Positions 9,881 through 29,870 of a stretch of DNA of 37,273 bases are shown piece after piece. Location of the stretch: the NCBI RefSeq assembly GCF_013282575.1, contig NZ_JAAAYE010000054.1:1-37273 (forward strand), in the 5' to 3' direction. Both the position numbers and the translations under genes were made by a program. This stretch comes from Paraburkholderia sp. NMBU_R16. Lineage in GTDB: Bacteria > Pseudomonadota > Gammaproteobacteria > Burkholderiales > Burkholderiaceae. The notes under the pieces were generated by a model. It saw only the letters and a list, made by a program, of their open reading frames with translations, had not been told where the DNA came from and ran no database searches. Positions within the stretch are counted from its first letter, which is position 1. Each line of letters begins with the position of its first letter.

Positions 9881-10105
9881 CCCGTAAAAGCTCACCATTG
9901 GCGCCGCAGCGCGACAAGGTGAGCCTTTACGGGAGAAAACGCCGGACTTCGCGAGGCACGGCGGGTGCCGATGGGCCGAAAAGCGTCCCGCGAAGCAGAA
10001 AATCGGACGCAAAGCCCCCTGCAACGCACCGCAACGGAGGCAAACAAGTACCCCTTATCCCGAAAAAGCTCACCTCACGCCCAGGGGCTCCTGAAAAACC
10101 TCACC
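9881..10105. repeat. Distal iteron cluster A (four copies)
   Basis: Four 16-bp copies of the origin iteron lie between the H-NS-like gene and the hybrid kinase: CCCGTAAAAGCTCACC at 9881-9896, the reverse form GTGAGCCTTTACGGGA at 9919-9934, CCCGAAAAAGCTCACC at 10059-10074, and CCTGAAAAACCTCACC at 10090-10105. The first two face each other as an inverted pair, the only such pair outside the origin. They sit 21 kb from the origin array. The whole 560-bp gap (9630-10191) has no gene I can support; two overlapping frames there look like chance. Confidence 0.85.
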
Positions 10106-10191
10106 ACGCGGGAGCCCGTGGGCACGAGGCGCGGACGTCGGATAGGGCTCCACCTTCGGACCGTGCCATCGGCCTTGTCGAACGGCGCGGC

Positions 10192-13100
10192 CTAGCCGCG
10201 GTATCCGGTCACCGGTGCGGTGGCTGAACCCGTCGACATGCGTACCATCATGGCCGCGTCCAGCAACGCTTCCATCTGCTCGCGATCGTACGGCTTACGC
10301 AGCATCGCGGCCCCGGCGAGCGCTTCCGGCTTGCGGCCGTCGGGCAGCTCGTCGTACCCCGATGCGAAGATCACGCGCAACCCCGGCTGCAATGCGACCG
10401 CCCGCATCGCCAGTTCGTCGCCGGACAGATCGGGCAGTGCGATGTCCGTCACGATCACATCGAACGTGTGCTTGCCGAGTAGTGCCAGCGCTTGCGTCGC
10501 ATCGGCGGCTTCAGTCACGGCATAGCCGAGATAGGACAGCATGTCCGCCGTGGTGAAGCGAACCATCGGGTCGTCATCGACCAGCAGTACGCGCCCGCGC
10601 AAGCGCCCAGGCATGCGGACGGCGTTGACAGGCTGCGGAGCGTCGGTCTCAAGCAACGACGGCGAAGGCAATGCCGGCTTGCCACGCACCTGATGCCGCA
10701 AGACGTGGCGAATCTTGCGTGCCAGCGCTTCGCGGCTATAGGGTTTGCTGAGCAGATCGACGCCATCGTCGAGCCGGCCGCCATGCACGATCGCGTTATC
10801 GGTGTAGCCCGACGTGAACAGAACCGCGATGTTGGGTAGTCGTTCCCGCGCGCGGCGGGCCAGCTCGGGACTATCGAGCGGCCCCGGCATGACCACGTCG
10901 GTGAATACGAGGTCAATCGGCACCCCGCTCTCGACGATCGCGAGCGCGCTTTGCGCATCCTTCGCCCGCAGCACGCGATAACCGAGCTCGGAGAGCAGAT
11001 CGACGACCGTTCCGCGCACGTCTTCGTCATCCTCGACGACGAGAATGGTTTCCGTACCGCCCGTGATCGGCCCGGCCTCGACTTCGGTCTCGACATCCTC
11101 GGGCTGGCGCGCGCGCGGCAAGTAGAGCCGCACGGTCGTACCTTGCCCGAGCTCGCTGTAGATCTTGATGTGTCCGCCCGATTGCTTGACGAAACCGTAG
11201 ACCATGCTCAGCCCGAGGCCCGTACCACGGCCTTCGGGTTTCGTCGTGAAGAACGGCTCGAAGACACGTTCGAGCAACTCGGCCGGTATACCGCAACCGG
11301 TGTCGGTCACGGCGACCATGACGTATTGGCCGGGCGCCACGTCGGGATGACGCGCGACATAGACATCGTCGAGAAAAGCATTGCCCGCTTCGATCGTGAG
11401 CTTGCCGTGACCCTGCATCGCGTCGCGCGCATTGATGGCCAGATTGAGCAGGGCGTTTTCGACCTGCACCGTATCGACGAACGTATTCCACAGCCCGCCC
11501 GTGATCACCGTTTCGATTTCGACGCTTTCTCCAAGCGAGCGGCGCAGCATGTCGTCGATGCCCCGGATCAGTCTGCCGAGATTGACCGTCTTCGGCGACA
11601 ACGGTTGCCGGCGTCCGAATGCCAGCAGTTGCGAAGCGAGCCTCGAACCGCGTGCCGTCGCGGCAACGGCGGTCTGCAGCCGCTGCTCGGCGCGCAGATT
11701 CCCCGATACGTCGCGGCTCAGCAGTTGAAGATTGCCGGCAATGACCTGCAAGACGTTGTTGAAATCGTGAGCGACACCGCCAGTGAGCTTGCCGATCGCT
11801 TCCATTTTTTGCGCTTGGCGCAATTGCGCCTCGGTATGCAGGCGTTCCGCAATCGCCGCGGCGACGCGTCTTTCCAGTACGACGTTCGCCTCGCGCAAGA
11901 TCTGTTCGGCCTCCTTACGATCCGAGATATCGATGATCGAGCCGATGTAGCCGAGAAACTTCCCGTCGTCACCGAAGCGCGGTACGGCCGCGCCCAACAC
12001 CCAGCGATAATCGCCGGCAGCGGTCCGTACACGGTATTCGGCGCGAAACGGGCGGCGTTCGGCATGGGCATCGAGAAAGTCTTGGCGGGCGCTCTCGCGA
12101 TCCTCGTCGTGCAGTGCTGCCCAGGCGCCTGCGCCTATTGCCTCATCGAGCGTCTGTCCGGTGAACTCGCACCAAGGCTGGTTCAGATAATCGAATTCGG
12201 CCTCCGGCGTGCTGATCCACATCATCACCGGTGCGTGATTGGCCATATTCCGGAAGCGCGCCTCGCTTTCGCGTAGATCGCGTGTAGCCTCGCGTCGCAG
12301 TCTCGCCATCTCGAGGTTCGCATTGACGCGCGCGAGAAGCTCGCGAGCCGAAAACGGCTTCGTCAGATAGTCGTCGGCGCCCGCGCCCAATCCCTCGACA
12401 CTCGCCTCCTCCCCGGCACGCGCGGAAACGAGTACGACCGGCAGATCGCGTAGTTCGGAGTCCGAACGAATTGCACGCAGCAAGTCGAAGCCGTCGAGAT
12501 TCGGCATCATGACGTCGCTCAAGACGACGTCGGGCCTGCGCTCGCGGATCGCCGCGAGCGCTTCGTGCCCATCGGCGGCAGTGTCGACCTCCCATTGCCC
12601 CCGCAACAACCGGCTCACATAGCGGCGCATGTCCTCGTTATCGTCGACGACAAGCACGCGCGCCCCCCTCGTCCGGCTGCCGAACGGCAGCGTCGGCAGG
12701 TCGTCGGCGCGCTCGGACGGGGCTTCGTCGCCGTCCTCCGCGCCCGACTGCGGCAGCCAGCGCAGAGCCTCTTCGACGTATGCGCCCGCACGGTGGGGCG
12801 TCCATGCAAGCAGGCGTTCGGGACCGATGCGATCGGGCGCCAGATGAGCGGTGCCGAATGGAAGGCTCAGGGTGAATGCGGTACCGCGTCCGACCTCGCT
12901 CTCGACAGAGATTGCCCCGCCGTGCAGCTTGACGAGTTCGTGCACGAGCGCGAGCCCGATGCCGGACCCTTCGAAGGAGCGGCTACGCTGTCCCTCGACA
13001 CGGTGAAAACGCTCGAATAAGCGCACCAGCTCGTTCGAGGGAATACCGACACCCGTATCGCGGACCACGATCTGCGCGGCTTCCCCGTCGGCCGACACCT

Positions 13101-14595
13101 GCGTGCGCACCTCGATGCGCCCTTCGAATGTGAACTTGAACGCATTCGACAGGAGATTGAGGACGATCTTCTCCCACATATCGCGGTCGACGTAGACCGG
13201 CTGTGGCAGGCTCTCGCACTCGATAGACAATTCGAGGCCAGCCCGCTGGGTGGCCGACTCGAAACTCGATGCGAGTTCCGCGGTGAACTTGGCCACATCG
13301 GTCGGCTCGAACATCGCTGTCGCACGCCCCGCCTCGATACGCGAGAAATCGAGCAGCGAATTGACGAGCCTGAGCAACCGCACGCTGCTGCGGTGTGCGG
13401 TCAGCAGGCGGCGACGTTGAGGCGGCGCGAGCGCATTTGCCGACGGATCGTTGAGGGCGTCCTCGAGCGGTCCGAGCATCAACGTGAGCGGCGTACGAAA
13501 CTCGTGACTCACGTTCGAAAAGAACGCGGTCTTGGCACGATCGATTTCGGCCAGGACTTCGGCGCGCCGCCGCTCTTCCTCGTAGGCCTGGGCATGGCCG
13601 ATGGCCGCAGAAATCTGCCCGGCAACGAGCCCGAGAAAGCTTCGATAGTTGCCGTCGTACAGGCGATACGGATTGAGCCCGACCACGAGCACGCCAGCCC
13701 GGCCGGTCTCCGCGCCCGGCACGATGGGCAGCAACGCCGCCTGCGCAGGGGACTCGTCCCAAGGACCGCTCGGCAACGGTACGCCAATGCGCCTGCCAAG
13801 CTCCGAGACCAGCGTGGGTGTGCGCGTACGCAATACCTCGCCGACCGGCCAGATCGACGAATCGTCCACGGCGATCGAATGCGGCGCGGCACGGTGGGCG
13901 CGATCGATCCCGGACGCACACGCGAGCGCGAGCGTCGGTGCGCCGATATCGTCAGCCATATACATCATCGCGAACGGCAGATCGCGTGCGTTCGTGCCAA
14001 GCGCCTGCACGCTGCGTGCGCACACTTCCTGCCAGGTTCGGGCACGCGTTGCATCGGCGGCCAGATCGCGCAACAGCGCCAGTTGCCGTTCGCCGATGAC
14101 GCGCGGCGTATCGTCCGTATTGGCGCAAATGATCCCGCCGGCGCTGCCGTCGTCGTTTGGAATGGGGCTGAACGAGAACGTGTAATACGTTTCCTCGCGG
14201 TAGCCGTTACGCTCCATGACGAGCAGTTGCTCCTCGACATAAGTGCCGCGGCCCCCGCTCATCGCCATATCGAGCATCGGCTCGATATCGCTCCATATTT
14301 CGCTCCACACATCCTTTATCGGCCGGCCCAGCGCCCATTCATGCTTGCCGCCGATAATCGACTTGTATGGATCGTTGTAAAAATAGATCAATTGCTTGCC
14401 CCAGCCGATCCAGATCGGCTGGCTCGAATTGAGCATGATGCGCAGCGCGACTTTGAGGCTTTGCGGCCACGTGTCAGGCGCACCGAGCGGCGTCCCACTC
14501 CAATCGAATGCGCGGATGAGTCCGCCCAGTTCGCCGCCGCCCGAAAGAAAGTCCCAACCCTGCGCCTGGCGCAACGAATGCGATGCTTCGTTCAT
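10192..14595 (-). CDS. Orphan hybrid histidine kinase with two kinase cores and three receivers
   Basis: A 1467-residue soluble sensor protein. Order: PAS-like (about 30-165), GAF-like (170-340), HisKA with His364 in NVSHEFRTPL, HATPase (475-580, DTGVGIP), receiver 1 with Asp694, PAS (775-895), second HisKA with His943 in VAHDFNN, second HATPase (1045-1160, DTGCGIP), receiver 2 with Asp1233, and receiver 3 with Asp1384. All phospho-acceptors and receiver lysines (K746, K1284, K1434) are present. I see no membrane segment. The ATG at 14595 has AAGGAA 7 bases upstream; the frame is open further but lacks a signal there. No response regulator gene with an output domain adjoins it, so the output is unknown. 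Confidence 0.9.
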   Translation of the reverse strand: MNEASHSLRQAQGWDFLSGGGELGGLIRAFDWSGTPLGAPDTWPQSLKVALRIMLNSSQPIWIGWGKQLIYFYNDPYKSIIGGKHEWALGRPIKDVWSEIWSDIEPMLDMAMSGGRGTYVEEQLLVMERNGYREETYYTFSFSPIPNDDGSAGGIICANTDDTPRVIGERQLALLRDLAADATRARTWQEVCARSVQALGTNARDLPFAMMYMADDIGAPTLALACASGIDRAHRAAPHSIAVDDSSIWPVGEVLRTRTPTLVSELGRRIGVPLPSGPWDESPAQAALLPIVPGAETGRAGVLVVGLNPYRLYDGNYRSFLGLVAGQISAAIGHAQAYEEERRRAEVLAEIDRAKTAFFSNVSHEFRTPLTLMLGPLEDALNDPSANALAPPQRRRLLTAHRSSVRLLRLVNSLLDFSRIEAGRATAMFEPTDVAKFTAELASSFESATQRAGLELSIECESLPQPVYVDRDMWEKIVLNLLSNAFKFTFEGRIEVRTQVSADGEAAQIVVRDTGVGIPSNELVRLFERFHRVEGQRSRSFEGSGIGLALVHELVKLHGGAISVESEVGRGTAFTLSLPFGTAHLAPDRIGPERLLAWTPHRAGAYVEEALRWLPQSGAEDGDEAPSERADDLPTLPFGSRTRGARVLVVDDNEDMRRYVSRLLRGQWEVDTAADGHEALAAIRERRPDVVLSDVMMPNLDGFDLLRAIRSDSELRDLPVVLVSARAGEEASVEGLGAGADDYLTKPFSARELLARVNANLEMARLRREATRDLRESEARFRNMANHAPVMMWISTPEAEFDYLNQPWCEFTGQTLDEAIGAGAWAALHDEDRESARQDFLDAHAERRPFRAEYRVRTAAGDYRWVLGAAVPRFGDDGKFLGYIGSIIDISDRKEAEQILREANVVLERRVAAAIAERLHTEAQLRQAQKMEAIGKLTGGVAHDFNNVLQVIAGNLQLLSRDVSGNLRAEQRLQTAVAATARGSRLASQLLAFGRRQPLSPKTVNLGRLIRGIDDMLRRSLGESVEIETVITGGLWNTFVDTVQVENALLNLAINARDAMQGHGKLTIEAGNAFLDDVYVARHPDVAPGQYVMVAVTDTGCGIPAELLERVFEPFFTTKPEGRGTGLGLSMVYGFVKQSGGHIKIYSELGQGTTVRLYLPRARQPEDVETEVEAGPITGGTETILVVEDDEDVRGTVVDLLSELGYRVLRAKDAQSALAIVESGVPIDLVFTDVVMPGPLDSPELARRARERLPNIAVLFTSGYTDNAIVHGGRLDDGVDLLSKPYSREALARKIRHVLRHQVRGKPALPSPSLLETDAPQPVNAVRMPGRLRGRVLLVDDDPMVRFTTADMLSYLGYAVTEAADATQALALLGKHTFDVIVTDIALPDLSGDELAMRAVALQPGLRVIFASGYDELPDGRKPEALAGAAMLRKPYDREQMEALLDAAMMVRMSTGSATAPVTGYRG

Positions 14596-14791
14596 GTGGC
14601 AGTTCCTTGCTCGTCGATTCAGCAAAGATATCGCCGCCACCCGCAAAAACCAATATGCCGTATGGCCAAATCGCCGTAAATGCGCGAATAAAAATCGGGC
14701 ACAAATCGTGCGCGACGCGACGACTGCAAGAATTACTGCACGGGCGATCCGCCATCCGACGAATCGGAAACAAAGTTGCGCGACCAACGGC

Positions 14792-15862
14792 TCAAAGCGT
14801 ATCGTCCGTCGTCAATGCCTCGCTGAGCGCCCGATCGAGACGTTCCCACGCGCGTTCGTCGGCGGGCAAGCCGAACCGTAGCCCACGCACGACATCGAAT
14901 CGGCGGACCCAGATGGCGCGACGTGCGAGTCCGTCCTGCAGGCGAGCGGCATCGGCACAGCGTGTCCAGGCGAAGAGCGGCGTATGCGTCGCCTTCAATC
15001 CGTGCCGCTCGAGCAAGGCCACGAGACGCGCCGACGCGTCGCACAGCTGCGTACGCATCGTGCGCTGCCACGGTTCGTCAAGCAATGCGGCCCGCACCAC
15101 GCTACGCGTCGGGCCCGATACGGTCCACGGCCCACGCAGTCCGCGCATTGCGTCATCGAGTGCGGCCGGAGCGAGCGCGAATCCAGCCCGAGCGCCAGCG
15201 AGGCCATAGAATTTGCCGACCGAGCGCAATACGACAAGGCCGTCTGTCTCGACATGCGAGGCCACGCTCAGATGCGGCGTCGCCTCGACGAATGCCTCGT
15301 CGACGATAAGGCCCCCGCCGCGCGAAACGAGCTGACGATGCCAGTCGAGCAGCGTGGCCGCGTCGAACGATTCGGTGCCGGGGTTGTTGGGGTTCACGAC
15401 GACCAGATGCGTCAACGTCGCCGGTAGCGGTACACCCGGAGCAAGAAGGAAATCGGCGGCGTCGCGCCGATCGGCAAACGGCTCCGTGACGAAGCGCTCC
15501 ACCGTAAAACCCGCGGCTGCGAACGCCGGCGCATATTCGCCGTAAGTCAGCAAGCCGATACCGATGCGCCCCACGGGCAGGACCTGCGGCAGCATGCGGA
15601 TGGCCGCTTGCGTGCCCGCAACGGCCAGTGCGCGCGACGCGCCATAATGGGCGGCCGCGATCGCTTCGAGATCGTCGTCGTCATCGGGCAAGCGCAGCCA
15701 CGCCTGCGCGTCGATATCGGGCACCGGATAACCGCATGGATTGATGCCTGTCGAAAGGTCGATCCAGTGTTCGAGAGCAATGCCGTAACGGCGCACGGCT
15801 TCGGAAAGGTTGCCGCCATGAGGCACGGCAACTGAGACGATGGGAAGCTCGGATGTGGACAT
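14792..15862 (-). CDS. cobC: Threonine-phosphate decarboxylase of cobalamin synthesis
   Basis: A PLP-dependent fold-type I enzyme of 356 residues that makes (R)-1-amino-2-propanol phosphate, the linker between the corrin ring and the nucleotide loop (named CobC in Pseudomonas, CobD in Salmonella). Visible features: HGGNL near 15, STGINPCGYP near 37-46, VNPNNPG at 156-162, D188 in IVDEAF, and the PLP lysine K217 in RSVGKFYGLAGARAGF. It starts 7 bp after the cobD stop, so the two genes form an operon, both divergent from cobQ. Confidence 0.92.
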   Translation of the reverse strand: MSTSELPIVSVAVPHGGNLSEAVRRYGIALEHWIDLSTGINPCGYPVPDIDAQAWLRLPDDDDDLEAIAAAHYGASRALAVAGTQAAIRMLPQVLPVGRIGIGLLTYGEYAPAFAAAGFTVERFVTEPFADRRDAADFLLAPGVPLPATLTHLVVVNPNNPGTESFDAATLLDWHRQLVSRGGGLIVDEAFVEATPHLSVASHVETDGLVVLRSVGKFYGLAGARAGFALAPAALDDAMRGLRGPWTVSGPTRSVVRAALLDEPWQRTMRTQLCDASARLVALLERHGLKATHTPLFAWTRCADAARLQDGLARRAIWVRRFDVVRGLRFGLPADERAWERLDRALSEALTTDDTL

Positions 15863-15869
15863 GATCTGC

Positions 15870-17035: not shown

Positions 17036-18508
17036 ATGCCACGCGCGCTGATGATTCAAGGAACGAGCTCCGATTCGGGCAAAAGCACGCTTGTCGGCGC
17101 GCTGTGCCGAATCGCCGTGCGAGCCGGCATCCGCGTCGCGCCGTTCAAGCCGCAAAACATGTCGCTCAACAGCGCCGTCACCGTCGATGGCGGTGAAATC
17201 GGCCGCGCCCAGGCCTGGCAAGCATTGGCGGCCGGCGTCGACGCTCACACGGATATGAACCCGGTGCTGCTCAAACCGAACAGCGACATCGGCGCGCAAG
17301 TCATCGTCCACGGTCGGGCGCGCGGCAACCTCGATGCGCGGGCCTATCATGCGTACAAGCCGATCGCCATGCAGGCCGTGCTCGAATCGTTCGAACGACT
17401 GCGGGCCGCCTACGATCTCGTGCTTGTGGAAGGCGCAGGCAGTCCGGCCGAAATCAACCTTCGCGAGGGCGATATCGCGAACATGGGCTTCGCCGAAGCG
17501 GCCGATTGCCCCGTCGTCGTCGTTGCCGATATCGATCGCGGCGGCGTGTTCGCGCAAATCGTCGGCACGCTCGCGTGTCTTTCGGAGGCTGAACGCGCGC
17601 GCGTCAAGGGCGTGATCGTCAACAAATTTCGGGGCGACCCGGCGCTTCTCCAACCCGGCATCGATTGGGTCGAAGCTCGAACCGGCAAACCCGTGCTCGG
17701 CGTGGTGCCGTTCGTGCCGGGCCTTTGGCTCGATGCCGAGGACATGTTGCCGGCTGCACGGCACGCACCTGCCTCGGGCGACACGGTGTTGCGCGTGATC
17801 GTGCCCGCGCTTCCGCGCATCAGCAATCACACCGATTTCGATCCGCTGCGCGCGCACCCGCAAGTCGACTTCCGCTACGTCCGGGCTGGCGAACCGCTGC
17901 CCGCAGCGGATCTCGTCATTCTGCCCGGCAGTAAAAGCGTTCAACGCGATCTCGCGTGGCTGCGCGCACAGGGGTGGGAAGACTACCTGCGTCGCCATTT
18001 GCGTTATGACGGGAAGGTCATCGGCATATGCGGCGGCATGCAAATGCTCGGACGCGGCATGCGCGATCCGCTTGGCATCGAGAGCGCTACCGAATGCACC
18101 CACGGCTTCGGGCTGCTCGATTTCGAAACCGAGCTCGCGCCCGAAAAACAACTCGTCCGCACCGAGGGTTCGCTGACACTCGGCGATGCGCCAGTGCATG
18201 GATATGAAATCCACATGGGGACGACGACGGGCGCGGCACTCGCGCGGCCGGCCATGTGGCTGCGCCAGGGCGCTGGCGAGGAGCCGCGGCCCGACGGCGC
18301 CATATCGGACGATGGACAGATTTTCGCCACGTATCTGCATGGCCTCTTCGACGGTCCCGATGCCTGTGCGGCATTGCTGCGCTGGGCGGGACTCGATGAC
18401 GCTCAACGCATCGATTACCATGCCCGCAGGCTTGCGTCGATCGACACATTGGCCGACGCGGTTGCCGCGCACGTCGATATACCAGCGCTTTGGCGCTTGA
18501 TCGAATGA
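17036..18508 (+). CDS. cobQ: Cobyric acid synthase CobQ/CbiP
   Basis: A 490-residue amidotransferase that amidates four side chains of adenosylcobyrinic a,c-diamide using glutamine and ATP. The N-terminal synthetase domain has the P-loop-like [10 protein letters not shown] at 9-18, [10 protein letters not shown] at 37-46 and [10 protein letters not shown] near 164-173. The C-terminal class I glutaminase domain has the nucleophile Cys332 in [10 protein letters not shown] and His435 in YLHGLFD. AGGA lies about 9 bases upstream of the ATG at 17036. It is divergent from cobD-cobC. Length is normal and all key residues are present. Confidence 0.95.
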
Positions 18509-18620: not shown

Positions 18621-19024
18621 CCCGCAAAAGCTCACCTTACGTCAGGCAGGCAGCGCAGTCGCACATGATCGCGCGCCGCGCCTCTGGCTGATGTCTCCCG
18701 AAAACACTCACCTTGATGGCCGCGGGATAAGGCGTTACGGGCTGCGATCCCGAAAACGCTCACCTTTGGCTTCTTTGGCGCCGCTACTACGAGCCCCCTC
18801 GACGGCCGGTCCCGAAAAAGCTCACCGATGGGACCCAGCGAAGGCGATTCCGTCCTCGCTCCCGAAAAACCTCACCCTCGAGGTGGCTGATATGTTCGTT
18901 CAGCCGTACTTCGTGGTTGGCCTGATCAGCGGCCCGCGTTCTGTAAGCCTCGAACGCCTCGGCATCGCGAGGCGAAACATCGGAGATCAGATAAGCCGTC
19001 ATGAGACTCCCGAAAGTACTCACC
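18621..19024. repeat. Distal iteron cluster B (six copies, one orientation)
   Basis: Six 16-bp iterons, all as CCCG...CTCACC on the plus strand, at 18621-18636, 18697-18712, 18749-18764, 18811-18826, 18861-18876 and 19009-19024. Start spacings are 76, 52, 62, 50 and 148 bp, with no clear helical phasing. Variation is confined to the middle (GCAAAAG, GAAAACA, GAAAACG, GAAAAAG, GAAAAAC, GAAAGTA). They occupy the gap between cobQ and paoC, overlap a decayed gene remnant, and lie about 12.5 kb from the origin array. Orientation is opposite to all origin copies. Confidence 0.88.
18787..19002 (-). pseudogene. Remnant of a DUF1330-like gene amid iterons
   Basis: From an ATG at 19002 the minus strand encodes MTAYLISDVSPRDAEAFEAY and a few more residues that resemble the N-terminus of DUF1330 proteins (small dimeric alpha-beta barrel family, normally about 95 residues). 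After about 28 residues the similarity ends and the frame runs through the iterons, encoding nothing I recognise, to 18787. Only the first strand and helix of the family are present. It is probably a decayed gene whose 3' part was replaced. It could also be chance, since the match is short. Confidence 0.4.
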
Positions 19025-19041: not shown

Positions 19042-21237
19042 TCACGCGCTCGACGCACCCTCCATCACCAGCTCTGCCGCTGAAATCGGCAACGATCGAA
19101 CACGCTTGCCGGTCGCGGCAAAAACCGCATTCGCGACCGCAGCCGCCACACCCGTCGCGCCGAGCTCACCGATACCTTTTGCGCCGAGCGGACTCGCATA
19201 CGCATCGAACTCGTCGACGAAATGGATTTGGATATCGGACGGAATATCGGCATTGACGGGCACTGCCACGCCAGCCAGGTCTCTGGAAAGCCACCGCCCC
19301 AACGTCGGCTCATGATGCGTGCCTTCCATCGCCGCCATGCCCCAGCCCCAAATGATGCCGCCGATCATCTGGGCGCGCGCCGTGCGCGGATTGACGATAC
19401 GCCCCGCGCTATAACTGCCCACCGCGCGCCGCAGCCGCAGCAAGCCCAGTTCGGGATCGACGGCCACCTCGACGAAGATTGCGCCGAACGTCGAAATGGC
19501 CACGTCGCTGCCCTCGCCGTTCGCATTGAACGGCGCGCCGCCCGGCAAGCTGAACTCGCCGTCGGCTCTGAGCTCCGCTCGTCCGGCCTGACGCATGAGC
19601 TCGAAGATCGATCGCCCGCGCTCGTCGCTGCCGCTACACCGGATCCGGCCGTCCGCCAGCTCGGCTTGCGAATCCGGAATGCCCGCGAGTTCCGCGAGCT
19701 GAGCTCGCACGGCACGCGCCGCGTATAGAACCGAGGCACCGACGCCCATCGTCGACGACGATCCGTAAGTCGGCCCGCCTTTCGGCAATGCCGTATCGCC
19801 CATCGCCAGCGATACCTGATCGAGGGGCAAGCCGAGAACATCCGCTGCGATCTGCGGAAAAATCGTCAATGTGCCGGTGCCGATATCGTGGCAGCCCGTT
19901 TCGATCGTCGCTCGGCCACTAGCGTTGAGCCGCACGCGCGCGACGGACGGAAATCGAAAGCATCCCATCGAGCTTGTCGCCATACCGCAGCCGAGCAGCC
20001 ACGGCCCATCGCGTACCGGCTCCCGGGGACGGTCGTACCAGCCAAAGAGGCGCGCGCCTTCGGTGTAGGCCTCGCGCAGTTTTTTCGACGACCATGGCTT
20101 GCCTGTCGCCGGATCCGTTTCCGCATAGTTGGCGAGACGAAAATCGAGCGGGTCCATGCCCACGAGATGGGCCATTTCATCGATCGCGGAATCCAGCCCC
20201 CACAAACCCGGCCCCTCCCAAGGGGCGCGCATGGCGGTCGGATGATTCACGTTCGCATGCCGCACCTTCTGTTTCGTCTCAATCGCGGGGCTCGCATAGA
20301 CGCCCTGCGACGCGGACGTCGCATGCTCGACGAATTGCTCCGCAATCGACGTCACGTTTTCGACGTCATGGCTCAACGCGCTCAGGCGCCCGTCAGCGTC
20401 GGCGCCAAGCACCATGTGGTGACGCATGTCCGGTTGATAGCCGACCATCGAATACATCTGAGCCCGGCTCAACACGAGCTTGATGGGGCGTTGCAGCACA
20501 CGGGCCGCGGCCGCGGCCAGCAGCTCATGCGGCCAGACGAAACCTTTGCAGCCAAAGCCGCCACCGGTGTGATGGCAAATCACACGCACCTGCTCGGGCC
20601 TGATGCCGAACGCACTCGAGAGCACGGCCTGCACGTTGTAGCCGTGCTGGGTCGTATCGAATATCGTCAGCTCGTCGCCGTCCCAGATCGCCTGGACCGC
20701 TGACGGCTCCATCGGGTTGTGATGCCGCGAAGGTTGCAGGTAATCGGCCTCGTGCCGATGCACGGCGCTCGACAACCCCCGAGCGATGTCGCCTTTCGAA
20801 AACTCGGCGGGTGCGTAAAGATTTTCCGTTGCGATGACAGCCGCGCCTTCACTTTGCGCAACGAAGGGCGAGACTTCGATATCGGCTCGCACGAGTCGAG
20901 CAGCCTGCTCGGCCTGCTCGAGGCGTTGCGCGGCAACCATGGCAATCGCCTGGCCATGATGGCGGATCGTCGTGTCCTGCATCGGCAACAAGGTGATGGC
21001 CGAGGGTGCCGTCACGTTCGCAAAGCGCGGCATGTCGGCAACAGTCAATACGCGAACGACACCCGGCACCGACTCGGCCTCGTGTGTGTCGATCCGCCGA
21101 ATCGTACCTGCGGGCACAGGCGAGCCGACCAGGACCACAAAAAGTGCTCCGTCGAGCCGTTGATCCGCGGTGTACTTCGCCTGGCCGGTCACTTTGATGC
21201 GCCCATCGGGGCGGGGCAGCGCTTCGCCGATGCTCAT
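19042..21237 (-). CDS. paoC: Molybdopterin-binding subunit of an aldehyde oxidoreductase (PaoC-like)
   Basis: A 731-residue xanthine oxidase-family catalytic subunit. It carries the molybdenum cofactor motifs HTGGGFGCKG, MRAPWEGPGLWGLDSAIDEM and a GIGELGATG loop with the catalytic base near Glu691. Residues are closest to PaoC of E. coli, which oxidises aromatic and aliphatic aldehydes to acids. AAGGAGG lies 6 bases before the ATG at 21237. It overlaps paoB by four bases. No chaperone gene like paoD or XdhC follows, so cofactor insertion must depend on a gene elsewhere. The terminus lies just beside iteron cluster B. Confidence 0.9.
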   Translation of the reverse strand: MSIGEALPRPDGRIKVTGQAKYTADQRLDGALFVVLVGSPVPAGTIRRIDTHEAESVPGVVRVLTVADMPRFANVTAPSAITLLPMQDTTIRHHGQAIAMVAAQRLEQAEQAARLVRADIEVSPFVAQSEGAAVIATENLYAPAEFSKGDIARGLSSAVHRHEADYLQPSRHHNPMEPSAVQAIWDGDELTIFDTTQHGYNVQAVLSSAFGIRPEQVRVICHHTGGGFGCKGFVWPHELLAAAAARVLQRPIKLVLSRAQMYSMVGYQPDMRHHMVLGADADGRLSALSHDVENVTSIAEQFVEHATSASQGVYASPAIETKQKVRHANVNHPTAMRAPWEGPGLWGLDSAIDEMAHLVGMDPLDFRLANYAETDPATGKPWSSKKLREAYTEGARLFGWYDRPREPVRDGPWLLGCGMATSSMGCFRFPSVARVRLNASGRATIETGCHDIGTGTLTIFPQIAADVLGLPLDQVSLAMGDTALPKGGPTYGSSSTMGVGASVLYAARAVRAQLAELAGIPDSQAELADGRIRCSGSDERGRSIFELMRQAGRAELRADGEFSLPGGAPFNANGEGSDVAISTFGAIFVEVAVDPELGLLRLRRAVGSYSAGRIVNPRTARAQMIGGIIWGWGMAAMEGTHHEPTLGRWLSRDLAGVAVPVNADIPSDIQIHFVDEFDAYASPLGAKGIGELGATGVAAAVANAVFAATGKRVRSLPISAAELVMEGASSA

Positions 21238-22932: not shown

Positions 22933-22948
22933 CCCGTAAAAGCTCACC
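22933..22948. repeat. Single distal iteron C
   Basis: CCCGTAAAAGCTCACC, identical to the first copy of cluster A, lies in the 271-bp gap between the methyltransferase gene and paoA, about 8.6 kb from the origin array. Its orientation is opposite to the origin copies. The rest of the gap shows a 7-bp inverted repeat at 22776-22802 but no gene. Confidence 0.85.
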
Positions 22949-23650: not shown

Positions 23651-24190
23651 CTAAAACCCCATCTTCAATTGGAACCCGATCGTGAAAGGCAGATTGTCGG
23701 AAGGAATCGGCGGCACGAGAATGAAATTCATGCCAACGCGCTTATACGTCACCATGACGATCGGTGCGGCCACCGGCCCGATCGAATGATCGTGACCGAT
23801 GCCCCATCTGCCATAGTTGTATCCCGAAATGATGCCGCCCATGACGGCGAGCCGAACGAATCCCCAGTGAACGAATTCGGGCGCCCACACGCCCCCGCCG
23901 TACCACGACGGACGAGCAAGCGAATTTCGGAACCCGCCTGCGGTCAACGCCCATTGACCGTTGAGCCAGCACTCCACGCCGAGCCCTGGATTCACGTCTT
24001 CGAAAGACTGCTCGGGATGAATGTGATGTGACGCAATCATCGCATCGATCCAGAGTCCGCTGCCGCACCAGTTGGCCGCATGCGCCGGCACCGATGACGA
24101 CAGGACGCCCGCGGCAATAGTCGCCGTCGACAAGGCCACGCGTGCGATCGATTTCCGCGCGTAGCGTGCCACCACTTTCCAACGATGCAT
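23651..24190 (-). CDS. Exported outer-membrane beta-barrel-like protein
   Basis: About 179 residues with a clear signal peptide (basic n-region, hydrophobic core, cleavage after PAHA near residue 38). The mature part has alternating Gly and aromatic residues (GLWIDAMIASHHI, NPGLGVECWLNGQW, GGGVWAPEFVHWGF) and ends with F (IGFQLKMGF), the usual signal for BamA-dependent barrel insertion. A small eight-stranded barrel in the PagP or OmpW size range is likely, but I cannot assign either family. GGAG is 5 bases before the ATG at 24190. It precedes the methyltransferase gene and may share its transcript. Confidence 0.65.
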   Translation of the reverse strand: MHRWKVVARYARKSIARVALSTATIAAGVLSSSVPAHAANWCGSGLWIDAMIASHHIHPEQSFEDVNPGLGVECWLNGQWALTAGGFRNSLARPSWYGGGVWAPEFVHWGFVRLAVMGGIISGYNYGRWGIGHDHSIGPVAAPIVMVTYKRVGMNFILVPPIPSDNLPFTIGFQLKMGF

Positions 24191-24364
24191 GTCCGCTCCG
24201 TTCGCCGGTCTGGCGCCGGCCATGAGTTCTCGTTCGTACGGCTCGAGGCCGCTAGCCGCGCACTGTACCGCAATACGCTGGCAAACCGCGCACGAGGAAC
24301 CGAGGACACGCTCGGTTGAAACAGATCGAACCCGCGACCTTTACGCGTGAACGGACAACCGACC

Positions 24365-24853
24365 TCAAAGCCCGAGATCGGACAACCCCGGATGATCGTC
24401 CGGCCGGCGCCCCAGCGGCCAGCGGTAGAGCCGATCGCTTTCGCGTATCGGCAGATCGTTGATGCACGCAAACCGGCGCGCCATCAAACCATTTGCATCG
24501 AATTCCCAATTCTCGTTGCCGTAGGAGCGAAACCAATTGCCCGAATCGTCGTGCCACTCGTAAGCGAATCGCACGGCAATCCGGTTGCCGTCGTGCGCCC
24601 AGAGCTCCTTGATGAGGCGGTAATCGAGCTCCTTCGCCCACTTACGGCGCAAGAACGCGACGATCTCGTCTCGCCCATTGACGAATTCGGCGCGGTTGCG
24701 CCAGACGCTTTGCGGCGTGTAAGCGAGCGCGACGCGCTCGGGTTCGCGCGTATTCCATCCATCCTCGGCGGCGCGCACTTTCTGAATGGCGGTTTCGCGA
24801 GTAAACGGCGGAAATGGCGGCCGCGATTCGTTCGAATGATTCGGATCCGACAT
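24365..24853 (-). CDS. DUF1348 / NTF2-like family protein
   Basis: A 162-residue protein of the DUF1348 family, which has the cone-shaped SnoaL/NTF2 fold. Recognisable parts are [20 protein letters not shown], a [11 protein letters not shown] segment, [19 protein letters not shown] and the C-terminal CINDLPI. Function in the family is unknown, though it is often linked to small-molecule stress. AAGGAGGGACC upstream gives a strong ribosome site. It lies 55 bp downstream of a TetR-family regulator on the same strand and is probably co-transcribed with it, so the TetR ligand may be related to its substrate. Confidence 0.85.
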
Positions 24854-24908
24854 GGTCCCTCCTTACGTTCAGGCTAGTGAGAAAGTCTTTGTTCGCAAGA
24901 GCGCGCCG

Positions 24909-25541
24909 CTATACCGATGCGCGAGCATCGAGCAACGTCATGGCCGCGGCGCGCGCATCCCGCGCCGCGCCGGCACTGCCGCTCACGAGCGCCACGCCAA
25001 TGGCCCCGTCGATCAGAATCAGCCATTGCCTGGCAAGCGATGCGGCCGCTTTTGTGTCTCGACCTGTGTCCGTGACATAGGCGTCGCACATCACGCGAAT
25101 GAATTGCAGCAACTGCGCCTTGTGCTCGCGTGCGACCACACGAATCGGGTCTTCGGCGCAGCCGATCTCGCCCGACGCATTCAAGAACGCGCACCCATGG
25201 AAGTCCGGCGACACAAACCATTCGCGCAGCACCTCGAACATCCCCAGCAATTGCTCGCGGGCCGTCTTCCCGCTGCGCCGCGTACCCTCGATGAACCAGC
25301 TCATCCAGCGTTCGTGACGCCGCCGCAACGCAGCGGCGACCAGCGCATCTTTCGATTCGAAGTACGTATAAAAGCTTTTGCGCGTGGTCGCGGACTGCCG
25401 GACGATGGCGTCCACGCCGGTCGCATGAATACCCCCCGCATAAACGAGCGCCTCGGCGGCGTCGAGCAGCTTGTCGCGCACACTGCTCCCTGCGGAGCCG
25501 CGTTCGTGCTCGCCGGCGCGATGTCGATCCGTATTTGCCAT
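24909..25541 (-). CDS. TetR-family transcriptional repressor
   Basis: A 210-residue regulator. The N-terminal TetR helix-turn-helix spans about 20-67 (VRDKLLDAAEALVYAGGIHA, then VDAIVRQSATTRKSFYTYFE). The C-terminal ligand domain contains FHGCAFLNASGEI, which is common in the YcdC/NemR-like branch that senses electrophiles, with Cys as a candidate sensor. A perfect palindrome lies 11 bp upstream and is the likely self-operator. It leads the DUF1348 gene and is divergent from a YceI lipoprotein gene whose start is 86 bp away, so it may control both sides. Confidence 0.9.
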   Translation of the reverse strand: MANTDRHRAGEHERGSAGSSVRDKLLDAAEALVYAGGIHATGVDAIVRQSATTRKSFYTYFESKDALVAAALRRRHERWMSWFIEGTRRSGKTAREQLLGMFEVLREWFVSPDFHGCAFLNASGEIGCAEDPIRVVAREHKAQLLQFIRVMCDAYVTDTGRDTKAAASLARQWLILIDGAIGVALVSGSAGAARDARAAAMTLLDARASV

Positions 25542-25552
25542 GGCGCTAAGGT

Positions 25553-25566
25553 AGAACGATCGTTCT
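25553..25566. promoter_or_regulatory. Perfect 14-bp palindrome, probable TetR operator
   Basis: AGAACGATCGTTCT is its own reverse complement. It lies between the TetR gene (start 25541) and the divergent YceI gene (start 25628). The length and A/T flanks fit TetR-family operators, and repression of both genes by the adjacent regulator is plausible. No binding data can be inferred beyond the symmetry. Confidence 0.65.
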
Positions 25567-25627
25567 CCCTTGTCAATCGAGGTTTCGCATATAAGCTATA
25601 AGCCCGATCGAACGCTCAACCACCTCG

Positions 25628-26299
25628 ATGAAAGAACTCAAGACCGCGCGCGTTAAAGCCGCGTACGCCACGCTGTTCGCGCTGATCGCCACGAGCACCG
25701 TCTTGCTGCCCGCATGCACCCCATTGCGGGTGGTGACGCATACCGTCGGCACGGACGAAGCGCGCGTTCCCTCGGGCAGCTATGCGCTCGACGCACATCA
25801 TTGGAGCATCACGTTCGATGTCGACCATTTGAAATATTCGCGCTTTACGATGCGCTTCGACAAAGCGCAGGGGACGCTCGATTGGAAGCCGGGCGGCATG
25901 GAAGCGAGCACCGTGGACGTCTCGATCGACGCATCGAGCGTCGACACCAACGTAGCGCTGCTGGACAAGCTGGTGAAAGGACCGGATATGTTCGACGCAG
26001 CGAACCATCCAACGATTCGCTTCGTCAGCACGCGCGTCATGCGCACGGGCAACGCCGAGGGCAAGCTGGAAGGGAATCTGACGATCCGTGGCGTGACGCG
26101 GCCCGTGGTGTTCGATCTGAAATTCAACGGCTACGGCGTCGATCCGCTGACCAAGGAAAACAAGCTCGGCTTTTCCGCGCAAGGACACTTCAGCCGTTCG
26201 CAATTCGGACTCGGGACGTGGTACCCCGCGGTCGGCGACGATGTGCGCGTCAGAATCGAAGCGGAGTTCGCCCAGCACGCGAACGGCGAGGCGCGATAG
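25628..26299 (+). CDS. YceI-family lipoprotein
   Basis: A 223-residue exported lipoprotein. The signal peptide ends in a lipobox, LLPAC, with Cys30 as the lipidation site. The YceI lipocalin-like domain follows: GSYALDAHHWSITFDVDHL near 50, DVSIDASSVDTNV near 100, FDAANHPTIRF near 124 and the C-terminal FGLGTWYPAVGDDVRV. YceI proteins bind isoprenoid-type lipids in the periplasm and several are induced by high pH or osmotic stress. It is divergent from the TetR gene and convergent with tdh, ending 10 bp from it. Confidence 0.88.
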   Translation: MKELKTARVKAAYATLFALIATSTVLLPACTPLRVVTHTVGTDEARVPSGSYALDAHHWSITFDVDHLKYSRFTMRFDKAQGTLDWKPGGMEASTVDVSIDASSVDTNVALLDKLVKGPDMFDAANHPTIRFVSTRVMRTGNAEGKLEGNLTIRGVTRPVVFDLKFNGYGVDPLTKENKLGFSAQGHFSRSQFGLGTWYPAVGDDVRVRIEAEFAQHANGEAR

Positions 26300-26309
26300 C
26301 GCCCGACGC

Positions 26310-27341
26310 TCAAGCGTCGGTCCAGTCGAGAATCACCTTGCCGCTTTCGCCCGACAACATCGTGGCGAACGCCTCTTCGTAGTCCGCGACCGCAAAGCGG
26401 TGCGTCAGAATCGGCGACAAGTCGAGCCCGCTTTGGAGCATCGCGACCATCTTGTACCAGGTCTCGAACATCTCGCGGCCATAGATGCCTTTGATCTCGA
26501 GGCCCTTGAAGATCACCTGGTTCCAGTCGATCGCCGTTTGCGCGGGAGGAATACCGAGCAACGCGACTTTGCCGCCATGATTCATCGCTTCGAGCAAGCT
26601 CGTGAACGCGCTCGGGACGCCGGACATTTCGAGGCCCACATCGAAGCCCTCCGTCATGTGCAGTTCGGCCATGACATCGCGCAGCGATTCGCGCGCGACA
26701 TTCACGGCACGCGTCGCCCCCATTTTGCGCGCGAGTGCCAGGCGATAGTCGTTGACATCGGTGATGACGACGTTGCGCGCACCGACATGCCGCGCTATCG
26801 CGGCCGCCATGATGCCGATGGGGCCCGCGCCGGTGATTAACACATCCTCGCCGACGAGATTGAACGAGAGCGCCGTATGCGTCGCATTGCCGAACGGGTC
26901 GAAAATAGCCGCGAGATCGTCGGAGATCTCGTCGGGAATCTTGAAGGCGTTGAATGCAGGAATGACGAGAAATTCCGCGAATGCGCCCGCGCGATTGACG
27001 CCGACCCCCACGGTATTGCGGCACAGATGCCGGCGTCCGGCTCGGCAGTTGCGGCAAAAGCCGCAGGTGATGTGACCTTCGCCCGATACGCGATCGCCGA
27101 TGGAAAAACCGCGCACCTCCTGCCCCATCGCCACGATTTCGCCGACGTACTCGTGGCCGACCTGCATCGGCACGGGAATCGTCTTTTGCGCCCAGTCGTC
27201 CCATTTCCATATATGGATGTCGGTTCCACAGATCGCGGTCCGCTTGATGCGGATCATGACATCGTTATGACCGACCTCGGGTTTCGCCACACGCGTCAGC
27301 GTCAAACCAGGCGCCCGCTCCAGTTTCGCCAGTGCTTTCAT
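26310..27341 (-). CDS. tdh: L-threonine 3-dehydrogenase
   Basis: A 343-residue zinc alcohol dehydrogenase-family enzyme that oxidises L-threonine to 2-amino-3-ketobutyrate with NAD. The catalytic zinc ligands Cys38 (AICGTDIH) and His63-Glu64 (VGHEY), the structural zinc cysteines 93, 96, 99 and 107, and the Rossmann motif [10 protein letters not shown] are present. AGGGGC lies 7 bases before the ATG at 27341. It follows kbl after 19 bp, so the two are one operon that turns threonine into glycine and acetyl-CoA. The divergent XRE-cupin gene upstream is the likely regulator. Confidence 0.95.
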
Positions 27342-27360
27342 CGTTTTCGCCCCTTGCCTT

Positions 27361-28560
27361 TCAAACGATGCCAAGCGATTTGCCGACCCGCTTGAAGGCG
27401 TTGACTGCACGATCGATCTGTTCGGGCGTGTGCGCCGCGCTCATTTGCGTGCGAATGCGCGCACGCCCTTTCGGCACGACCGGATAAGAAAAGCCGATGA
27501 CGTAGACACCCTCTTGCAGCAACGCATCGGCCATGCGCGAAGCCATTTGTGCATCGCCAAGCATCACCGGGATGATCGGATGTTCGCCCGGCACGAGCGT
27601 AAAACCGGCCGCGCTCATTGCCTCCCGAAAACGCTCACCATTGGCGCGTACGCGACCCCGCAACTGGGCGCCTTCGTCGCTTCGCAACAACTCGAGCACG
27701 GCGAGCGATGCTGCCGCGATACTGGGCGCGAGCGTATTCGAGAAGAGATAAGGACGCGAACGCTGGCGCAGGAGTTCGACGATTTCGCGGCGCGCCGCGA
27801 CATAACCGCCCGACGCGCCGCCAAGCGCCTTGCCGAGTGTGCCCGTCAGAATGTCCACGCGACCCTCGACGCCGCAGTATTCGGGCGTGCCACGGCCATG
27901 TTCGCCGATGAAGCCGACCGCGTGCGAATCGTCGACCATGACGAGCGCGCCATAGCGATCGGCGAGTTCGCAAATGCCGGCGAGATTCGCAATGATGCCG
28001 TCCATCGAAAAGACACCATCGGTTGCAATCAGCTTGAAGCGTGCCCCGGCCGCGTCGGCCTCGCGCAACTTCGCTTCGAGATCGGTCAGATCGTTGTTCT
28101 TGTAGCGGTAGCGTTTGGCTTTCGAGAGCCTCACGCCGTCGATGATGCTCGCGTGATTGAGCTCGTCACTGATGATGGCGTCGTTCTCGTCCGTCAGCGT
28201 CTCGAACAATCCGCCGTTTGCGTCGAAGCAGCTCGAATAGAGAATCGAATCGTCTGTGCCGAGAAATTCGGAAATGGCATGTTCGAGCGTCTTGTGCACG
28301 GATTGCGTGCCGCAAATGAATCGCACCGATGCCATGCCGAAACCATCGTCGTCGAGCCCTTGCTTCGCCGCCGCGATCATGCGCGGATCGTTCGCGAGAC
28401 CGAGATAATTGTTCGCACAGAAATTCAGCACTTTTTCGCCGTTTGCGAGCTGGATGGCTGCGGATTGCGGACTGGCGATGACGCGCTCGGATTTGTAAAA
28501 ACCGTCGGCCCGGATCTGGTCGATCGTCTTGCGCAAATGGGCAAGATAGGTTTCGCGCAT
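27361..28560 (-). CDS. kbl: 2-amino-3-ketobutyrate CoA ligase (glycine C-acetyltransferase)
   Basis: A 399-residue PLP enzyme of the alpha-oxoamine synthase family. It cleaves 2-amino-3-ketobutyrate with CoA to glycine and acetyl-CoA, the second step after Tdh. [13 protein letters not shown] near 47-59, [11 protein letters not shown] near 132-142, [11 protein letters not shown] at 209-219 and the PLP lysine K244 in [10 protein letters not shown] are all visible. AGGAG precedes the ATG at 28560 by 8 bases. One perfect iteron core lies in the coding sequence at residues 308-313. It is first in the kbl-tdh operon. Confidence 0.95.
27624..27639. repeat. Iteron copy inside the kbl coding sequence
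   Basis: CCCGAAAACGCTCACC on the plus strand is identical to a copy in cluster B (18749) and is the exact reverse complement of the origin copy at 32853. On the coding strand it specifies G-E-R-F-R-E of Kbl, a moderately conserved stretch, so it may be partly constrained by the protein. Whether Rep binds it is unknown. Confidence 0.7.
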
Positions 28561-28674
28561 CGTTGCTGCTCCTGTGAGAGTCGGTACGAATCGCGCCCTC
28601 CCCGGATCGCGGGTCGATGCGCTCATGTAGCTGTTATAGTCGGTCATCGTCGATATCGGACGATTTCAATTTTT

Positions 28675-28699
28675 CGAACATAAGTTCGATATATCGAAC
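28675..28699. promoter_or_regulatory. Overlapping palindromes between kbl and the XRE-cupin gene
   Basis: GTTCGATATATCGAAC at 28684-28699 is a perfect 16-bp palindrome. It overlaps CGAAC-ATAA-GTTCG at 28675-28688, so three CGAAC/GTTCG half-sites are spaced regularly. They lie 24 bp upstream of the XRE-cupin start (28723) and about 115 bp upstream of kbl, in the only space available for the divergent promoters. These are the probable operator of the XRE-cupin regulator. Confidence 0.65.
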
Positions 28700-28722
28700 A
28701 ACTTTAAGCGATCGGAAACCAA

Positions 28723-29343
28723 ATGGCAAGCACGGGCAACCGGCGCGGCCCGCACGCGTCTTCACCCGCCGTTGGAGCGAGCCCCGCCAGCGCCGCGCCA
28801 CCGCGCGTCGGTGAGCAAATTCAGCGGCTCAGAATGGATCGCAAGATGACGCTCGACGACCTGTCTCGGGCAGCGGGGGTGTCGAAGTCGATGCTGTCGG
28901 AGATCGAGCGCGACAAGGCAAATCCCACCATCGCTGTCGCATGGCGGTTGACGAACGCGCTCGGCGTCAGCCTCGACCAGCTGTTCGCCACGCACAAAGC
29001 GCCGGAAACCATCACCGTAGCAGGTCCACACGATATTCCGACGCTCGATGGGCACGAAGCGAAGTATCAACTGCGCGTATGGGGCCCCATCGAGCTCGCG
29101 GGCAAATTCGAATGGTATGAATTGACGTTGCAAGCCGGGGGCGCCCTCGTCTCCAATGCTCATGAACCGGGTACGCGCGAACATCTGACCGTGCTGCAAG
29201 GTTCGGTCGAGGTCGAGGTCGACGGGGTGGTCAAGCGCCTGAAAACCGCCGATACGGCGCGTTACGTGGCGGATGTCGATCATGCGGTGCGCAATGCTGG
29301 CAAAAGTGAAGCCAAAGCGTTGCTCGTCGTCATCCACGGATAA
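28723..29343 (+). CDS. XRE-family regulator with C-terminal cupin domain
   Basis: A 206-residue regulator. After a low-complexity Ala/Pro/Ser-rich start (1-27), an XRE helix-turn-helix spans about 29-85 (GEQIQRLRMDRKMTLDDLSR, GVSKSMLSEIERDKANPTIA). A cupin-2 domain covers about 120-205, with the metal-site-like H-E-P-G-T-R-E-H-L and VEVEVDG strands. Such proteins commonly sense amino acids or related metabolites. It is divergent from kbl-tdh, and a symmetric operator lies between them, so control of threonine catabolism is likely. GGAA lies about 5 bases upstream of the ATG. Confidence 0.88.
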   Translation: MASTGNRRGPHASSPAVGASPASAAPPRVGEQIQRLRMDRKMTLDDLSRAAGVSKSMLSEIERDKANPTIAVAWRLTNALGVSLDQLFATHKAPETITVAGPHDIPTLDGHEAKYQLRVWGPIELAGKFEWYELTLQAGGALVSNAHEPGTREHLTVLQGSVEVEVDGVVKRLKTADTARYVADVDHAVRNAGKSEAKALLVVIHG

Positions 29344-29381
29344 TTTCAACGCTCGACTGGCTGCAGTCTTCGGTCACGATA

Positions 29382-29397
29382 CTGTATATTTGTACAG
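29382..29397 (+). promoter_or_regulatory. Perfect LexA box
   Basis: CTGTATATTTGTACAG matches the proteobacterial LexA consensus CTGT-N8-ACAG at every fixed position and has the usual AT-rich core. It lies 25 bp upstream of the start codon at 29422. The preceding gene ends at 29343, so the box can only serve the downstream gene. Confidence 0.78.
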
Positions 29398-29421
29398 GTT
29401 ATCTCGATATTCGAACCGGCC

Positions 29422-29805
29422 ATGAGAGAACAAGACCTCGCTGCAATACGCTTGCGGGCGGCAGCCCGCGACCTCGAACAAATCGTCCGCCATATCGCAG
29501 CGCGCTACATCGTCCAGGGCGTGCCGCTGACATGGCGCCTGCTTCATGCCATCGAAGCCGAGGCGCTCGCCGATCTCGGTTTCGCAAGCCGCCACGAAGC
29601 GTTCATCCTCGATCTGTTCAAGCGCCCGGCGGACCTGGCTTATCCCGAAACAGACGACCCCGCCACGTTCGGGCGATCGAACGCGCTGCCAGCCGCGCTG
29701 GCGTTCGCAGTCGCGGCGTATGAAGAAGCACAGGAAAAACCGCCGGCCGGCGGCACGCGAAAGCAGGCGGACCGGTCACCCCGCGCTCAAGGCCAGCGCG
29801 GCTAA
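29422..29805 (+). CDS. Orphan protein of unknown function under LexA control
   Basis: A 127-residue protein with an alpha-helical look: an amphipathic first helix (DLAAIRLRAAARDLEQIVRH), VPLTWRLLHAIEAEALADLGF, a segment FILDLFKRPADLAYPETDDPA, and a Lys/Arg/Gln-rich disordered tail (105-127). I recognise no family. The perfect LexA box upstream argues that it is induced by DNA damage. It shares the control type, small size and lack of neighbours with the gene at 720, but I see no sequence similarity between them. Candidate roles are damage checkpoint or stability functions, unproven. Confidence 0.6.
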   Translation: MREQDLAAIRLRAAARDLEQIVRHIAARYIVQGVPLTWRLLHAIEAEALADLGFASRHEAFILDLFKRPADLAYPETDDPATFGRSNALPAALAFAVAAYEEAQEKPPAGGTRKQADRSPRAQGQRG

Positions 29806-29854
29806 GCGGCGCGTGCATGCGCGGACGGCTCCTGGAGACACTCACGCAAGCCCT

Positions 29855-29870
29855 CCCGAAAAAGCTCACC
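29855..29870. repeat. Single distal iteron D
   Basis: CCCGAAAAAGCTCACC lies in the 112-bp gap between the LexA-controlled gene and the 3' end of the KfrA-like gene, 1.6 kb from the nearest origin iteron. It has the same orientation as the other distal copies, opposite to the origin copies. Confidence 0.85.

Follow-up and report, generated by a model that had tools for sequence, protein, structure and literature searches.

Introduction

The copy number of plasmids P1 and F is limited by iteron sets, incA and incC, that lie outside the minimal origin. In Escherichia coli, the origin-proximal locus datA reportedly binds the initiator and limits initiation of replication. This locus has been compared with the external sites of Vibrio cholerae chromosome II (chrII) (PMC3937223), where copies of the origin sites for the initiator RctB are found outside the origin on the same chromid, six of them active within ~74 kb, some 40 kb off (Baek and Chattoraj, 2014; PMC3937223). 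These external sites lower the copy number of an ori2 plasmid (PMC3937223), and a later ChIP-seq study located RctB sites also in coding genes and described little effect of mutating single sites (PMC11711613). Here we analyse a 37,273-nucleotide stretch of Paraburkholderia sp. NMBU_R16 (the window), which is the entire contig NZ_JAAAYE010000054.1 (C54) of a 562-contig draft genome. It carries a chromid replication origin with its Rep3-family initiator gene repA, together with thirteen copies of the origin iteron far from the origin, which we consider likely binding sites of RepA.

The window iterons have the same motif as the consensus ctCCCGAAAAacCTCACCTtt described for chromosome 2 of Burkholderia cenocepacia J2315 (Du et al., 2016; PMC4948915). 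According to a legend in that study, further copies occur across the genome, and a second c2 cluster lies 140 kb anticlockwise of the origin (PMC4948915). The original prediction, that no such layout was known from a Burkholderia-type chromid, therefore holds only in part: a far cluster had been mentioned, whereas the near array appears to be undescribed in the open-access literature searched. The passages of that account that we examined contain no near clusters, orientation, site in hpnD, conservation or role (PMC4948915), and we found no description of the near clusters or of the hpnD site in the passages that we examined of the open-access literature. Within this scope, what appears to be new is an array of closely spaced sites near the origin that is oriented, kept by selection and associated with a Rep3 initiator.

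The array resembles the RctB system in having copies of origin sites outside the origin on the same chromid, partly within coding genes (PMC3937223; PMC11711613). However, RctB uses two kinds of sites, 12-mer iterons and 39-mers, whose function has been tested, whereas we predict function for a single motif that accompanies a Rep3 protein and is present, outside the origin, in 4-20 exact copies in each of the 13 genomes tabulated below. The system also differs in that its near sites begin 3 kb from repA, in its biased orientation and in its conservation at the codon level. Like datA, the array is an origin-proximal, initiator-linked locus for which we propose a brake role, but datA acts on DnaA via nucleotide hydrolysis. 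To our knowledge, Rep3 proteins do not use ATP. The array shares with incA and incC the presence of extra iterons outside the minimal origin; those sets adjoin the rep gene, whereas the sites described here extend over tens to hundreds of kilobases. In our judgement, the understanding of how plasmid-derived second chromosomes fire once per cycle rests largely on one model, V. cholerae, and the present array appears to be a second example. Its initiator is a different one, the group that carries it is large and has been much studied, and its sites are fixed enough to be named and deleted.

Results and Discussion

Distal Iterons Carry the Origin Motif

All thirteen distal copies listed in the original prediction are present, and twelve of them are inverted relative to the origin array, which lies on the - strand. 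Cluster A (9881..10105, predominantly +) consists of four iterons in the order + - + + (9881+, 9918-, 10059+, and 10090+), flanked by genes for an H-NS-like protein and a hybrid sensor kinase; 9881 overlaps a 96-aa open reading frame (ORF) without Pfam match, which is probably not a gene. Cluster B (18621..19024, +) comprises six iterons, all + (18621, 18697, 18749, 18811, 18861, and 19009), in the convergent gap between a cobQ gene ending at 18508 (+) and a molybdopterin-dehydrogenase gene with its 3' end at 19042 (-). Genomes G003 and G010 carry 6 and 11 clustered sites, respectively, between about -9.9 and -9.1 kb relative to repA, which are possibly related to cluster B. The remaining three copies, all +, are single: 22933..22948 lies between two - strand genes (-10.1 kb), 27624..27639 inside the coding sequence of an aminotransferase gene (-5.4 kb), and 29855..29870 between a DUF2471 gene and a convergent KfrA_N-domain gene (-3.1 kb). 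Thus, as claimed, all but one (27624) are intergenic. An inverted site at -2.5 to -4.3 kb recurs in 78 of the 79 named loci with enough upstream sequence, locus L080 being the exception.

The copies are also too frequent to be due to chance, as originally proposed. The pattern counted, CCCGNAAANNCTCACC, with 12 fixed bases, occurs 22 times in the host genome (19 of them in C54) as compared to 0 for the reversed control. For a wider scan we built a weight matrix from 1299 origin copies of 15 assembled regions and 80 named loci, some genomes being present as both and so counted twice; the matrix was applied to the same genomes on which it was trained, the distal copies being outside the training set. 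At a threshold of 17, it found 158 sites in the 765 kb outside the origin from 15 genomes, and the reversed matrix none; the 80 named loci, extending up to 10 kb on each side, yielded 216 sites outside the origin and 0 control matches. None of the cross-genome counts given here is corrected for phylogeny. Distal and origin sites have near-identical base profiles, flanks included, and the distal scores are no weaker than those at the origin (median 24.4 versus 23.4), the difference in favour of the distal sites not being significant (one-sided p 0.10).

Elsewhere in the host genome, synteny places a pair of iterons on contig C27 just off the left end of the window, matching a pair that G001 and G003 have between families F43 and F41, and identifies C65:8971/9075 as the equivalent of a far pair in relatives. 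We also observed a pair 23 bp apart beside a SWIM zinc-finger gene (C89:9565/9588), with no counterpart in the regions compared, and a further iteron at C51:3259.

The Motif Is Nearly Confined to RepA Replicons

Among 150 genomes of the family, 64 encode a RepA of at least 78% identity, 5 a Rep protein of ~40% identity, and 81 have no match at E 1e-60. The motif is present in all 64, with 9-27 exact copies in 60 of them and 1, 2, 3, and 5 in four small-genome members of genus index g8. In comparison, the 5 genomes with the ~40% Rep have 1-3 exact copies each, and six of the 81 genomes without RepA match have a single copy each; the reversed pattern gave 29 matches across all 150 genomes (counted by hand). 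Genera are referred to by index numbers, g1 being Trinickia and g12, as we infer, Burkholderia in the strict sense; G019 is a Caballeronia, G081 (g21) a Paraburkholderia, and G054 (g8) a Mycetohabitans. G027, with a 41%-identical Rep, has iterons of the form GGTGAG...ACAGGGA, from 14 copies of which a matrix was made, and GGTGAAC-type repeats were seen in G025.

From the 22 genomes with RepA of at least 78% identity and 2-4 contigs we tabulated 13, leaving out G017, G037, G067, and G076 (small g8) as well as G057, G086, G099, G121, and G126; G017 and G037 were nevertheless listed by place, and G057 and G121 were scanned near repA. Of the 243 exact sites in the 13 genomes, the RepA replicon accounts for 229, which divide into 107 origin sites and 122 distal ones. 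Equal frequency on the main chromosome, which the original prediction had named as speaking against it, was thus not observed. The distal sites also gather around the origin: 74 of the 122 are within 60 kb of repA, a zone making up 5.5% of the replicon length, 42 are at 60-350 kb and 6 beyond, so that 116 are within 350 kb.

The off-replicon exact sites comprise four attributed to a coding coincidence, three orthologous sites on a third replicon, one copy of a repeat, and six without counterpart among the loci compared. The first four are one 16-mer recurring on the main replicon of three g12 genomes (twice in G079, once each in G097 and G140). It was considered as a candidate trigger site and rejected: in G079 it encodes in frame VPETLTDI of a D12-class adenine methyltransferase gene, and since the DNA flanking the other occurrences is similar, we take it as a coding coincidence. 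No main-chromosome site resembling crtS was found with the exact motif in the 13 genomes, 7 of which have no exact off-replicon site at all. The crtS site of V. cholerae is reported to be without the iteron motif (PMC11711613), and a motif scan could therefore overlook a true equivalent. On the third replicon (0.9-1.3 Mb) of three g12 genomes there is an orthologous single iteron with flanks 84-97% identical (L208, G097:C4:518312; L211, G140:C3:176393; L210, G021:C3:772961), possibly a site of cross-talk between the second and third replicons. In G102, of the Mycetohabitans index, a repeat is present on two replicons with an iteron in both copies, C1:348051, a distal site of the chromid, and C3:24799; the copies (L217 and L216) are 86% identical over 594 bp.

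The 61-kb replicon of Candidatus Vallotia lariciata carries repA, parAB, and 9 origin sites at a low threshold of 12 (L031, 28562-29498), and no distal iteron was found on it at the same threshold. This fits with distal sites being dispensable on a small replicon, although erosion in a reduced genome explains it equally well.

Sites Inside Genes Are Kept as DNA

Since the window stops 4.3 kb past the start of repA, the downstream arm of the replicon cannot be seen within it. In most of the genomes examined, a site lies ~9.5-17 kb downstream, inside a gene that we identify as hpnD (NCBIfam HpnD equivalog, 333.5 bits against a cut-off of 278.6 for the G112 protein). This iteron is kept in 25 of the 26 RepA genomes examined, which span six genus indices, with scores of 20.7-26.6, and is retained even where hpnD is elsewhere on the same contig (G019 and G055 of g10; G054 and G102 of g8). 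The codons in the 25 genomes are TCG GTG AGR NTN TTC GGG, with AAG replacing AGR in G054, whereas elsewhere in hpnD 0.7% of the arginine codons are AGA or AGG, and 15% of the glycine codons are GGG. Furthermore, among the 96 columns with an invariant residue (Met and Trp excluded), 8 use a single codon in all 25 genomes, and 4 of these 8 are inside the iteron motif. In contrast, none of 13 genomes without RepA match or with the 40% Rep reached the threshold, the best score being 12.2, and four further genomes without close RepA gave no hpnD match. The aminotransferase site at 27624 shows a similar distribution on a smaller scale, being kept in all 8 g1 genomes and absent from all 7 orthologs of other genus indices. 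As judged from these alignments, distal iterons are kept by selection as DNA sites, even inside a gene. An initiator site held by rare codons in a metabolic gene points to replication control as a possible constraint on protein-coding sequence.

Gene Context, Orientation and Far Groups

Using heuristic gene calls, the 158 sites were assigned to convergent gaps (53), divergent gaps (7), tandem gaps (67), genes (29), and edges (2), as compared to 4.4, 6.5, 9.2, 79, and 0.9%, respectively, for random positions. Convergent gaps are thus preferred, and divergent gaps show no excess.

Left of the origin array lies an AT-rich stretch (30989..31489, no strand assigned), delimited by AT content binned over loci, which averages 0.46-0.52 in 100-bp bins from -2000 to -1500 (up to 98 loci) as compared to 0.36-0.40 at -3500 to -2500, and which is probably the unwinding region. 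Given this position, the array and most near sites read toward it. Within 60 kb in the 13 genomes, 67 sites read CCCG...CTCACC toward the AT-rich stretch and 7 away; at 60-350 kb the bias is weaker (29 toward, 13 away). The 19 assembled regions have 145 + and 25 - sites upstream, and 13 - and 1 + downstream. Upstream sites of the 80 named loci are 163 + and 43 -, and their 10 downstream sites, within ~10-11 kb, are 8 + (away) and 2 - (toward). The near right-arm orientation in the 13 genomes stems mostly from one orthologous site, that in hpnD, and the Mycetohabitans hpnD sites point away.

The neighbourhoods of the sites are conserved as well. The order + - + of cluster A recurs in G001 and G003 with the flanking gene families unchanged, so the exception in orientation at 9918 is itself conserved; the distance of cluster A to repA ranges from 15 to 33 kb. 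Farther out, at ~130-320 kb, g12 and g1 genomes carry additional groups. Those of g12 (six loci) have 2-7 sites that share one strand and partly a 23-bp register, with 2-3 inverted sites ~3-4 kb off, an anatomy resembling that of the origin itself (L156-L159 and L169). In five of six g12 genomes the far cluster is at 132-186 kb, resembling the 140-kb cluster of B. cenocepacia (PMC4948915), while in G088 it is at ~250 kb on the other side. Each g1 far group (seven loci) is a pair of sites, 82-104 bp apart, next to a nucleoside hydrolase gene. Three gene families are common to far-group neighbourhoods: F13, which has no Pfam match, sigma-54 activators and H-NS-like genes. The six g12 loci have all three, and six of the seven g1 loci at least one. 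Because sigma-54 activators and H-NS-like genes are common families, F13 is the better marker. The host's own far pair on C65 has the nucleoside hydrolase neighbour and, in the stretch examined, none of the three shared families. H-NS-family genes adjoin cluster A (9384-9629) and several far loci (e.g., L161:7721-8014).

Possible Functions of the Distal Iterons

In summary, the distal sites exist, match the origin motif at each base, occur almost exclusively on replicons with RepA, and are selected at fixed gene neighbours; binding by RepA, the sign of its effect, titration as opposed to handcuffing, and timing are what we infer. Sites of the same motif outside the origin on the same replicon are what is expected of a titration or handcuffing locus. 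Motif identity, near-confinement, origin proximity and conservation all fit the suggestion of the original prediction that the copies titrate or handcuff the initiator, and it is likely that they bind the chromid's own RepA and form such an array around the origin, consisting of near clusters within ~40 kb, the single hpnD site, and the far group. The outside sites would sequester RepA from the origin, and they may in addition form pairs with RepA bound there. As sites near the origin are doubled soon after initiation, they would then oppose a second round. Most likely, the function of the array would thus be to hold RepA back so that the chromid does not replicate too often.

Several observations weigh against a brake of this kind. 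The 14 off-replicon exact sites exceed the 2 reversed-control matches in the same 13 genomes, the small g8 genomes G017 and G037 have origin sites only (2 and 3), and the window genome's own hpnD (C51:31661-32527, L223) is the sole one of the 26 to have lost the site, with a best score of 5.0 and the ordinary codons GTG CGG ATT TTC GGC at the iteron position. In G027, only 3 distal sites above 13 were found as compared to 2 in the control in 80 kb, which gives no support from co-variation and makes the layout look clade-specific. Moreover, titration alone leaves the orientation bias unexplained. In V. cholerae, deletion of one external site is reported to give no growth phenotype, with the ori/ter ratio shifted as expected (PMC3937223).

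Were RepA a transcription regulator, the distal copies could be its operators, and a promoter is possible at the 74 sites in tandem or divergent gaps among the 127 of 158 that are intergenic. However, the 53 sites in convergent gaps against just 7 in divergent ones, no more than chance, speak against promoter control as the main role, as do the 29 sites inside genes, those in hpnD and the aminotransferase gene among them. In addition, the only transcription that RctB is reported to regulate is its own, apart from one weak exception (PMC11711613), and we regard operators as very unlikely. Even less credible is that the copies are functionless leftovers of origin duplications or rearrangements. 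The g12 far clusters are indeed built in the style of the origin, with a one-strand array, partial 23-bp register and inverted sites ~3 kb off, but distal match scores are as high as at the origin, relics would not be expected to keep conserved neighbours, and the synonymous codons held in hpnD contradict such a reading.

The orientation of the sites, on the other hand, calls for explanations of its own. A role as a polar, segregation or nucleoid-organising signal of the origin region, for which RepA would be used incidentally, would account for the 67 near sites reading toward the origin against 7 away, for the fact that two relatives keep the minority-orientation site of cluster A in the same order, and for the H-NS-like genes beside cluster A and several far loci. 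It is unlikely, though, as the far groups are mixed (29 toward, 13 away), the Mycetohabitans hpnD sites and 8 of the 10 downstream sites in the named loci point away, and we know of no Rep3 protein with a polar or segregation role. Another possibility, concerning orientation only and compatible with the brake, is that the bias arises secondarily from strand composition, with the motif strand rich in G and T falling on the leading strand; judging from the motif, GGTGAGNNTTTNCGGG has the leading-strand type of skew. Since chance sites are nearly absent (0 control matches in 765 kb), skew cannot create sites, but it could still bias which orientation persists, and we hold this to be conceivable without favouring it. 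More speculatively, and in our view rather doubtful, the near sites on both arms, most of which face the unwinding region, may form an orientation-coded domain of initiator sites acting as a fork-driven counter that shuts a fired origin. Forks leaving the origin would meet the sites from the same side and displace RepA in a set order, each passage immediately yielding two new sites, and part of the counter would be encoded in the hpnD coding sequence. The suggestion that inversion favours looped pairing of distal and origin sites fares poorly, as the downstream hpnD site shares the orientation of the origin and the far groups are mixed.

The Origin and Its Surroundings

The repA gene (32989..34347, +) encodes a 452-aa protein in which both Rep3_N (E 1.2e-11) and Rep3_C (E 7.9e-10) exceed the cut-off, as in Rep3 winged-helix initiators; a search by sequence for a relative of solved structure found none. 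The origin array (31514..32867, -) has 17 matches with up to 5 mismatches to CCCGAAAAAGCTCACC, all on the - strand, of which the one at 32168 overlaps a neighbouring match and is probably due to chance; 12 copies exceed the matrix threshold. Three further degenerate copies are visible by eye, and the 20 copies counted originally are thus fair as a loose count. The arrays of the 80 named loci have 11-16 copies above threshold, all on - and none on +. Since iterons of the c2 consensus form an array next to rep and parAB, the locus is identified as a chromid origin of the Burkholderia c2 kind.

On the side of the origin opposite to parAB lies the KfrA_N-domain gene (29918..31126, -; Pfam KfrA_N, E 3.9e-19). 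The genes parB (34425..35474, -; ParB_N and HTH_ParB) and parA (35499..36161, -; AAA_31/CbiA) are accompanied by three TTTATGCGCATAAA palindromes at 35484, 36262, and 36793 (span 35484..36806, no strand assigned), which are probably parS sites. Of the other 18 assembled regions, 17 have at least two such palindromes, similarly placed, and none was found in that of G088. Near these probable parS sites, ten CGAGAGC heptamers form a perfect array at 36428-36500.

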